Part shown: positions 36,561 to 40,758 of the stretch, piece after piece
Layout of the letters: each line of letters begins with the position of its first letter
How positions within the stretch are numbered: position 1 is the stretch's first letter
Translations under genes and position numbers: made by a program
The notes under the pieces: generated by a model
What the model was told of the DNA's origin: nothing
The model's input: only the letters and a program-made list of their open reading frames with translations
Databases searched by the model: none
Source of the DNA: Victivallis lenta
Lineage (GTDB): Bacteria > Verrucomicrobiota > Lentisphaeria > Victivallales > Victivallaceae
DNA length: 64,000 nucleotides
NCBI RefSeq assembly: GCF_009695545.1
Contig: NZ_VUNS01000020.1
Location: 1 to 64,000, forward strand
Direction of reading: 5' to 3'

Positions 36561-36663
36561 TGTGTTTGAAGAGGGAGAGGAGGCGGCGGCGCCCCCGCGA
36601 GGACGCCGCCGGGTTGACAGTTCAGTCAGCGTATCAGAATAAACATAACATGAGGTGATGCAC

Positions 36664-37269
36664 ATGAAAAGCAACTCTTTTCTGGTTCCGATGGTGGTCG
36701 AACAGACCGGTCAGGGCGAAAGAGCTTTCGATATTTACAGCCGGCTGCTGAAAGACCGGATCATTCTGCTCGGCACCCCGATTGACGACGATGTCGCGAA
36801 TCTCGTGGTGGCCCAGCTGCTGTTCCTGCAGGCGGAAGACCCGAAAAAGGACATCGATCTTTACATCAACAGCCCCGGCGGCTCCGTGACGGCCGGGCTG
36901 GCGATCTACGACACGATGCAGATTCTCTCCTGCGACGTCAAGACCTACTGCGTGGGGCAGTGCGCGTCGATGGGGGCCGTGCTGCTCTGCGCCGGCGCGG
37001 AAGGCAAGCGGTTCGCGCTGCCGAACAGCCGGATCATGATCCACCAGCCGTGGGGCGGCGCCCAGGGGACCGCGGCCGACATCGACATTCAGGCCAAAGA
37101 GATCCTGCGGTTGAAGTCGATGCTGAACAACATCATCGCGACGCACACGAAACAGCCGGTCAAAAAGATCGAAAAGGACACCGAACGCGACTTCTTCATG
37201 GGCGCCGACGAGGCGGTCAAGTACGGAATCGTCGACAAGGTGGTCTCCAAACCTTCTCAGGGGAAATAA
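36664..37269 (+). CDS. clpP: ATP-dependent Clp protease proteolytic subunit
   Basis: The 201-residue ClpP has the catalytic triad Ser102 (GQCASMGA), His127 (MIHQPW) and Asp172 (KDTERD). It assembles into a tetradecamer that degrades proteins unfolded by ClpX. ATG 36664 is preferred because GAGGTG lies six bases upstream; a GTG at 36655 and an ATG at 36658 are weaker choices. clpX follows after six bases. Confidence 0.96.
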
Positions 37270-37275
37270 CAGACG

Positions 37276-38619
<1,344 letters not shown>

Positions 38620-38641: not shown

Positions 38642-39766
38642 ATGGCTCAGTCCGTTGACCTGAAGACCCGCGTGATCGGCCCGGATACCGCCGTGCCGGA
38701 AACCGGCGACGGTGTCGATGTCTTCTCTTCGCTGCCGATCAAACCGCAGGAGCGGTACAAGTTCCTGCGGTCGGTCGGTTTCGGCGGAATGAAGAGTGTG
38801 CTGCTGGTCTTCGACCGGGATACCGGCCGTGAAGTCGCCATGGCGATCATGCCGGATTTCCGCGACCGGCCGAAGAGCGATCTCGAACGGTTCGTCCGCG
38901 AGGCGCGGCTGACTGCCCAGCTCGAACATCCGAACATCGTTCCGGTGCACGATCTCGGCATCGACAGCTCGGGCTCGCCGTTCTTCACAATGAAATACCT
39001 GCACGGGCAGTCGCTTTCGTCGGTGCTGCGCAAGCTCGCCAAGGGCGACGCCGAGGCGGTGCACCGCTTCAGCCAGCTCCGGCTGCTGCAGATTTTCATC
39101 CGGATCTGCAACGCGGTCGAATTCGCGCATTCGCAGGGAATCTGCCACCTCGACATCAAGCCGGAGAATGTGAATATCGGCGACTTCGGCGAAGTGCTGC
39201 TGCTGGACTGGGGGCTGGCCCGGGTCATCTCCCCGCATTCGCGGCTCGCCTCGCCCAATACGGAGGACGTCGACGCGAACGGGCATGTGAAGGGAACTCC
39301 CGGCTACATGGCGCCGGAACAGATCCGGCTGCTGAAGGAGCATCCGGTCGGCTTCCGGTCGGACATCTACTCGCTCGGCGGAATCCTGTATGCGATGCTT
39401 TCGCTGTCGAATCCGCTCTCGCGGCTGCCGATGGAGGAGATTCTGCGCCGGACGACCTCCGGCGAAATTCCGCCTCCGTCCGACGTGGCGCCCGACGAGC
39501 GTCATATTCCGGCTGCTCTCGAGGCGATCTGCCAGAAAGCGATGGCCCTGAACCCGGACGACCGCTATCAGACCGTAGCCGAGCTGCGGGAGGACATCTT
39601 CGCCTTCCAGACCGGCTATGTGCCGAAGGCTGAAAACGCCTCGCCGCTGAAGCATGCCGGGCTGTTCCTCGGACGGAATCTTCTGATCCTGATGATCCTG
39701 CTCGTCCTGTTCCTTGCGCTGTCGCTGGCGACGCTGGCCTACTACTATTTCAATGCGGTGAATTGA
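38642..39766 (+). CDS. Membrane-anchored Ser/Thr kinase with WNK-like lysine placement
   Basis: The 374-residue protein has an Hanks-type kinase domain (about 38-330) and a C-terminal transmembrane helix (LILMILLVLFLALSLATLAYYY), the reverse of most bacterial Pkn kinases in having almost nothing outside. The glycine loop is GFGGMKSV (46-53). The VAIK lysine position is Ala68 (VAMAIM), while Lys51 sits within the loop exactly where WNK kinases carry their catalytic lysine. Glu87 of helix C, HLDIKPEN (169-176, Asp171) and DWG (189-191) are present. It may be active with a relocated lysine, or a pseudokinase. It is 22 bases after clpX and 2 bases before a Gfo/Idh gene. Confidence 0.85.
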   Translation: MAQSVDLKTRVIGPDTAVPETGDGVDVFSSLPIKPQERYKFLRSVGFGGMKSVLLVFDRDTGREVAMAIMPDFRDRPKSDLERFVREARLTAQLEHPNIVPVHDLGIDSSGSPFFTMKYLHGQSLSSVLRKLAKGDAEAVHRFSQLRLLQIFIRICNAVEFAHSQGICHLDIKPENVNIGDFGEVLLLDWGLARVISPHSRLASPNTEDVDANGHVKGTPGYMAPEQIRLLKEHPVGFRSDIYSLGGILYAMLSLSNPLSRLPMEEILRRTTSGEIPPPSDVAPDERHIPAALEAICQKAMALNPDDRYQTVAELREDIFAFQTGYVPKAENASPLKHAGLFLGRNLLILMILLVLFLALSLATLAYYYFNAVN

Positions 39767-39768
39767 CC

Positions 39769-40758
39769 ATGATACGGTTTGCGACGATCGGCACGAATTT
39801 CGTCACCGGCTGGTTCCTCGAAGCCGCCCGCGAATGCCGGGAACTGCATTATGCGGCCGCCTGTTCGCGGAGCGGAGATAAAGCGCGCGGCTTTGCCGCG
39901 GAGCACGGCGCGGACGGCATCCACACCGACCTCACCGCACTGGCGGAGGACGCCGGAATCGACGCGGTCTATATCGCCAGCCCGAACAGCCTGCATTTCG
40001 AGCAGGCGGCGCTCATGCTGTCGCACGGGAAGCACGTGCTGCTGGAGAAGCCGGCCGCCTCGAACCGGCGGGAGCTGTCCAAATTGCTGGAGATCGCGAA
40101 GACGAACCGGGTCATCCTGCTCGAAGCGATGCGCTCGGTGTTCGACCCCGGCTTTGCGGCCGTTGAACAGGCGCTGCCGCGGCTTGGCAGAATCCGCCGT
40201 GCGAGTTTTCAATACTGCCAATATTCGTCGCGTTACGACAAATTCAAAGCCGGAATCATCGAAAACGCCTTCAACCCGGCCTACTCCAACGGAGCGCTGA
40301 TGGATATCGGCGTCTACTGCGTGCATCCGCTGGTCCGGCTGTTCGGCCGCCCGGACCGGATTCTGGCTGATGCGGTGATTCTCGACAACGGCGTGGACGG
40401 CGCCGGAACGATCCTGGCCGGATACGACTGCGGCATGCAGGCGGAGCTGGTCTATTCGAAAATCACAAACAGCCGGGTTCCCAGCCAGATTCAGGGAGAG
40501 GAAGGCAGCATGGTGATCCGGGAGATCGCAAATCCGCGCGAAGTCACGATTTTTTACCGGAACGGCGGGGAGGAGACGGTCTTCGCCGGGCCCGATCGCC
40601 GGAACATGATTTTCGAAGTGCGGGAGTGGGTCCGGCTGATCCGGGAGGGCGCCCCCGACAACCCGCACAACCGCTATTCCCTGCTGGAGCTCGAAGTCAT
40701 GGACGAGGCGCGCCGTCAGACCGGAATCCGCTTCCCGGCGGACGACATCAGGCCCTGA
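39769..40758 (+). CDS. Gfo/Idh/MocA-family oxidoreductase
   Basis: The 329-residue NAD(P)-dependent enzyme has a Rossmann start (IRFATIGTNFVTGWFLEA), SPNSLHFEQA and the catalytic EKPAASN motif (Lys in EKP). A C-terminal alpha/beta domain follows, with MDIGVYCVHPL. The family oxidises or reduces sugars and sugar derivatives; the specific substrate is unknown. ATG 39769 lies two bases after the kinase stop, so the two are likely co-expressed. A TTG three bases after the preceding frame is not favoured. Confidence 0.9.
   Translation: MIRFATIGTNFVTGWFLEAARECRELHYAAACSRSGDKARGFAAEHGADGIHTDLTALAEDAGIDAVYIASPNSLHFEQAALMLSHGKHVLLEKPAASNRRELSKLLEIAKTNRVILLEAMRSVFDPGFAAVEQALPRLGRIRRASFQYCQYSSRYDKFKAGIIENAFNPAYSNGALMDIGVYCVHPLVRLFGRPDRILADAVILDNGVDGAGTILAGYDCGMQAELVYSKITNSRVPSQIQGEEGSMVIREIANPREVTIFYRNGGEETVFAGPDRRNMIFEVREWVRLIREGAPDNPHNRYSLLELEVMDEARRQTGIRFPADDIRP

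Follow-up and report, generated by a model that had tools for sequence, protein, structure and literature searches.

The window, that is, the whole 64,000-nucleotide stretch of DNA that was analysed, contains a gene for a PknB-type, membrane-anchored protein kinase directly downstream of clpX (Table 1). The protein matched the Pfam Pkinase domain (PF00069) at 1.2e-37 (130.1 bits, above the cut-off of 31.7). It consists of a variable N-terminus, a kinase domain covering approximately residues 37-325 and a single membrane helix at the C-terminus. The AlphaFold2 model had a mean pLDDT of 89.6, and its fold compared with that of PknB (1mru) at Z 31.9, with an rmsd of 1.8 over 262 residues. The best matches among solved structures were the bacterial kinases PknB, StkP and PknA.

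Table 1. Features of the clpP-clpX-kinase locus
Feature	Position in the window	Strand	Evidence
clpP, upstream of clpX	36655..37269	+	gene list, locus comparison
clpX, directly upstream of the kinase gene	37276..38619	+	gene list, locus comparison
CDS of the lysine-shifted, membrane-anchored Ser/Thr-type kinase, 374 aa (ATG at 38642, TGA at 39764-39766)	38642..39766	+	translation, Pfam PF00069, orthologues
Glycine loop GFGGMK, residues 46-51; Lys51 (codon 38792-38794) in place of the third glycine	38777..38794	+	translation, alignments
beta3 motif VAMA, residues 65-68; Ala68 (codon 38843-38845) in place of the VAIK lysine	38834..38845	+	translation, alignments
Glu87, helix C glutamate, invariant	38900..38902	+	alignments of relatives
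Catalytic loop HLDIKPEN, residues 169-176; Asp171 and Asn176 retained, Leu170 in place of the HRD arginine	39146..39169	+	alignments of relatives
DWG, residues 189-191, instead of DFG; metal ligand Asp189 kept	39206..39214	+	alignments of relatives
C-terminal transmembrane helix, residues 347-373; almost nothing past the membrane in the short form	39680..39760	+	AlphaFold2 helix, hydrophobicity
Gfo/Idh/MocA-type oxidoreductase (named by sequence reading), beginning 2 nt past the kinase	39769..40758	+	gene list, open reading frame

The initial annotation, made from the sequence alone, had read the VAIK lysine as replaced by Ala68 and had put Lys51 of GFGGMK at the position of the WNK lysine, with Glu87, Asp171 (HLD) and Asp189 (DWG) remaining. 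All of these assignments hold. The alignments of the window kinase with Mycobacterium tuberculosis PknB and with WNK1 were gap-free across the stretch from Lys51 to Ala68, so the residue assignment does not depend on alignment choices; the WNK1 equivalents are Lys233 for Lys51 and Cys250 for Ala68. In the AlphaFold2 model, Lys51 is the first residue of beta2 (51-58), Ala68 lies within beta3 (63-69) and Glu87 within helix C (78-92). The membrane helix that had been placed after the kinase domain is likewise found in the model (347-373), and the most hydrophobic 19-mer of the protein is formed by residues 347-365.

The kinase had also been described as a neighbour of clpX, which is correct: the gap between the two genes is 22 nt, and 51 of 52 loci retrieved from the window's family have clpX directly upstream of the short-form kinase. 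The end of clpP often precedes clpX at these loci, at the same place in many relatives. The oxidoreductase gene on the other side was not found as a neighbour in the compared loci L016-L044. Most orthologues from outside the window's family are open frames of approximately 830 to 1050 aa, and in several of the long forms scanned the membrane helix is followed by LRR, TPR or F5/8-type domains, whereas the clpX-linked copy has no such domains; the window protein is therefore a clpX-linked short form in a family of receptor-like kinases. Next to the long forms no clpX was seen, though for many of them only approximately 500 bases of flank were available. The short-form kinase would probably be made together with ClpP and ClpX, co-expression being inferred from the arrangement; co-transcription with clpX and any role in controlling ClpXP likewise rest on inference alone.

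Conservation of the relocated lysine

Close orthologues were identified by protein search in most of 100 related genomes. All of those with a readable glycine loop keep Lys51, Ala68, Glu87 and HxD, and all have DWG except one with DFG; the identity of these similarity-selected orthologues goes down to approximately 43%. The genome's own other readable kinases, covered by the same survey, have the normal lysine. Additionally, Lys51, Ala68, Glu87, Asp171, Asn176 and Asp189 were invariant across 37 aligned, diverse members with identities as low as 34%, and E87, H169, D171, N176, D189 and G191 were kept in 139/139 tabulated shifted sequences, part of which came from a pattern that itself required Lys51/Ala68. 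Leu occupied the HRD arginine position in 132 of the 139. Within the genus, the dN/dS of the window kinase gene was 0.08-0.29, a sign of purifying selection. One orthologue, L022 in genome G004 (G004:C82:8146-9231), contains a single in-frame TGA, which is either a sequencing error or the mark of a decaying gene.

Among 302 distinct related kinase domains, 185 carried Lys51/Ala68, one Lys51/Val68 and 113 Gly, Ala or Ser at position 51 together with Lys68. Two degraded domains had neither lysine, one was unreadable and none had both. Because motif searches select for the motif, the survey was repeated with the profile alone; of the profile-selected paralogues that were read, 29/30 and 31/40 carried Lys51, and the shifted variants GGEK, GGSK and GGLK, missed by the motif, were recovered. 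The initial annotation had proposed looking for homologues with both changes and would have been refuted by homologues with a regular VAIK lysine. Many homologues do keep both changes, Lys51 and Ala68 being invariant in the shifted family, and those with the regular lysine carry Gly, Ala or Ser at position 51, so no refutation follows. In some shifted kinases (L270, L279, L289, L295, L304, L309, L312, L317, L321 and L323), an extra lysine directly precedes Ala68 ([VI]AKA), besides Lys51.

Distribution and origin of the shift

The shifted form extends through most of the window's order. It recurs in other families of the same phylum and also in a single genome belonging to a second phylum, and additional copies within the class and the phylum came from motif searches. 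It is absent from several genomes of the order (family f8, genus g41) and of the class. Profile matches per genome numbered 98 in G251, 104 in G338 and 10 in G122; G251 by itself yielded 46 distinct shifted kinases by our own count. The WNK-like layout is thus that of a widespread, heavily duplicated family rather than of a single odd protein. In G251 and G338 (for example, L270-L339), approximately 100 family matches occur per 5-6 Mb genome, mostly in frames of 640-750 aa that comprise a kinase and a membrane helix; such an expansion of receptor-like kinases is extraordinary for bacteria.

Genome G446, placed in the same phylum as a Phycisphaerae MAG, contains at least 11 shifted kinases (L186, L191-L200), and none were found in the other 293 genomes of its sample. 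No 16S was found in G446, so misbinning or misassignment is not excluded, and transfer and misassignment remain as alternatives. Pattern matches in Acidobacteriota, and those in four of the five matching genomes of the Planctomycetota sample, were not kinases and were rejected. The shifted lysine was not seen in the top Chloroflexota matches, all of which have the normal lysine.

Two trees of shifted and other bacterial kinases, built without columns 51 and 68, placed the shifted kinases in one group, surrounded by bacterial DWG kinases that have the normal lysine. A more careful tree, to which Planctomycetota and Chloroflexota kinases were added, placed L371 and L372 (HLD, old lysine) basal to the shifted group; it was compatible with one or two lysine changes. 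Constraining the shifted kinases to one clade gave a likelihood equal to or slightly above that of the free tree (p-AU 0.517). Most simply, and in this best tree, the shift had a single origin within the bacterial DWG kinases, with two changes remaining possible. The large numbers of shifted kinases therefore stem from one or two evolutionary events and are not independent; their weight lies in long retention, not in repeated origin.

The top Planctomycetota relatives have GGMG/VAMK, the parental state; the change therefore resembles a hop of the lysine that left most of its surroundings as they were. The columns that best separate shifted from unshifted kinases are 51, 68, 170 (Arg/Cys to Leu), 221 and a few others. 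Three kinases, L371, L372 and L330, combine the old beta3 lysine with HLD instead of HRD, the first two beside the shifted clade and L330 elsewhere, and it is possible that they are relicts of the state that preceded the lysine move. In addition, a degenerate sequence (L209, G063:C351:2164-3168) without the HxD and DxG aspartates and with a disturbed glycine loop forms a long branch near the base of the shifted clade.

Inferred catalytic competence and its alternatives

We read the window protein as a catalytically competent bacterial Hanks-type kinase whose phosphate-binding lysine no longer sits in beta3 but at the end of the glycine loop, where beta2 starts (probability approximately 0.84); activity and the Lys51-ATP geometry are inferred, with no biochemistry and no ATP-bound model. 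WNK1, an active enzyme, uses a beta2 lysine (Lys233) in place of the beta3 one (PMC4718504; PMC1821047). As the substitution is WNK-like and the other catalytic residues are invariant in 139/139 sequences, an active kinase is the best reading. Specifically, Lys51 would enter the ATP site, contact the alpha and beta phosphates and pair with the helix C glutamate Glu87, like Lys233 of WNK1, while Ala68 would occupy the place left by the lysine and Asp171, Asn176 and Asp189 would perform the usual chemistry. The kinase domain is predicted to be cytoplasmic and tethered to the membrane by one helix. The move itself would have taken place within the bacterial DWG kinases, most simply once, and would then have been retained through large duplications. 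Activation differs from that of both WNK and PknB, since the HRD arginine is lost (HLD); its replacement by leucine makes RD-type activation by a phosphorylated loop unlikely, an inference from general kinase knowledge.

A conserved pseudokinase family, which perhaps binds nucleotide without phosphotransfer and keeps Lys51 only for structure or nucleotide binding, is an unlikely alternative. A missing VAIK lysine is one of the usual pseudokinase criteria (PMC12599244), the shifted family has lost the HRD arginine too, and genuine pseudokinases (L388, L389 and L209) do occur among the relatives. However, these true pseudokinases lose the HxD and DxG aspartates together, unlike the shifted family, in which Asp171, Asn176, Asp189 and Glu87 are invariant in 139/139 sequences and would not be needed by a dead scaffold. 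Moreover, the lysine is nearly always at one of the two sites and never at both in the 302 domains. Thus, we keep to the active kinase; by inference, many enzymes that the usual rules would class as dead are then probably active. Two tandem pairs, L378 + L389 (G093:C4) and L379 + L388 (G094:C7), each combine a DWG kinase that looks intact with a kinase-like protein that is fully degraded (GGRY, VAIY, HANL, KGWG) and are possible kinase/pseudokinase partner pairs.

The relocation of the lysine in WNK is thought to permit chloride sensing. The chloride pocket of WNK1 comprises F283, L299, L369 and L371; the bacterial family has V/I, F, W and L at the positions of F283, L299, L369 and L371, respectively. 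WNK1 L369F is chloride-insensitive (PMC13397483). Since the pocket is not conserved and this single change causes insensitivity, WNK-type chloride sensing is not expected. By analogy, the relocated lysine might open a pocket behind the ATP site for the sensing of a small ion or metabolite, which would have driven the expansion to approximately 100 receptor-like matches per genome, with the clpX-linked copy coupling the signal to ClpXP proteolysis. This idea is speculative and unlikely, and its ligand would have to be another one, as the WNK pocket is not conserved.

WNKs have been described as unique among functional ePK families in lacking the VAIK lysine (PMC1821047). With activity inferred, the present kinases would be a second, independent family, bacterial and with hundreds of members, indicating that kinases can move their catalytic lysine by a defined hop. 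Close relatives exist on both sides of the hop (GGMG/VAMK and GGMK/VAMA, including the HLD relatives with the old lysine), making the order and energetics of the change testable. The usual criteria would file these proteins as pseudokinases, so the kinome counts for such bacteria may be seriously in error. A review puts the pseudokinase share of bacterial kinomes as high as 67% (PMC12599244), to which the present family might contribute. No such bacterial family was found described in the literature searched, which did not cover the large kinase surveys, so earlier notice is possible; as far as checked, a large family of bacterial kinases with a relocated lysine is undescribed.

Relation to WNK and other known kinases

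The family resembles the eukaryotic WNKs in having a lysine at the last glycine-loop position (beta2) and another residue at the VAIK site, and in retaining the Glu of helix C and the Asp of both HxD and DxG; all 139 tabulated sequences have the WNK-type lysine position (Lys51 = Lys233). Unlike WNK, it is bacterial and membrane-anchored, has DWG and HLD, carries Ala instead of Cys in beta3 and nests with PknB-type kinases. WNK1 R348, the HRD arginine, is not conserved (Leu in 132/139 of the bacterial family). No WNK was present among the best 60 sequence matches to solved structures. The structural matches listed included no WNK either, which is not evidence of a different fold.

That the bacterial family and WNK share the relocated lysine by descent or gene transfer is very unlikely. 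The same two columns are involved with the same 17-residue spacing, but this spacing is that of kinases generally (Gly55-Lys72 of PKA). Furthermore, the bacterial family nests within DWG kinases with the normal lysine in trees without WNK, and it lacks the HRD arginine, the chloride pocket residues and the Cys, having Ala instead. An artefact, be it misalignment, sequencing error or a local oddity of a single strain, is refuted by the conservation, as identical residues occur in more than 100 independent contigs from many genomes and the region has no gap. The convergence suggested by the initial annotation is supported by the trees that nest the family inside the bacterial DWG kinases, in which WNK itself was not placed; judged from sequence comparison, the family is a convergent WNK-like solution, not a WNK.

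A comparable charge shift, from position 72 to position 55, was proposed for the CAK-chloro subfamily (Kannan 2007, PMC1821047). These proteins differ from the window family in having Arg rather than Lys at 55, Met at 72 and Phe at the helix C Glu, and they belong to the choline/aminoglycoside kinase branch, not to the PknB branch. The bacterial pseudokinase families ActPs1-3, GLW, CP1, DYD and DLHK are STK-like and many lack the VAIK lysine, but none is reported, in the portion of the review that was accessible, with a glycine-loop lysine plus intact HxD and DxG (PMC12599244). Lentisphaerota, Verrucomicrobiota and Planctomycetota are not mentioned in that same portion (PMC12599244).

The helix C Glu, HxD Asp, Asn and DxG Asp are present in the window kinase as in Hanks-type kinases. 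Chlamydial PknD has DWG, and its NCBIfam model (NF009651) was the best match of the window protein (1.8e-66), at 224.8 bits below the equivalog cut-off of 839. No PASTA domains were found in the window protein or in the ten long forms scanned. With the PknB-type (Hanks-type) kinases, especially DWG kinases like PknD, the family shares the fold, the Pfam domain, the GGM glycine loop and the layout of a kinase followed by a transmembrane helix; it differs from them in that the VAIK lysine is gone and relocated.
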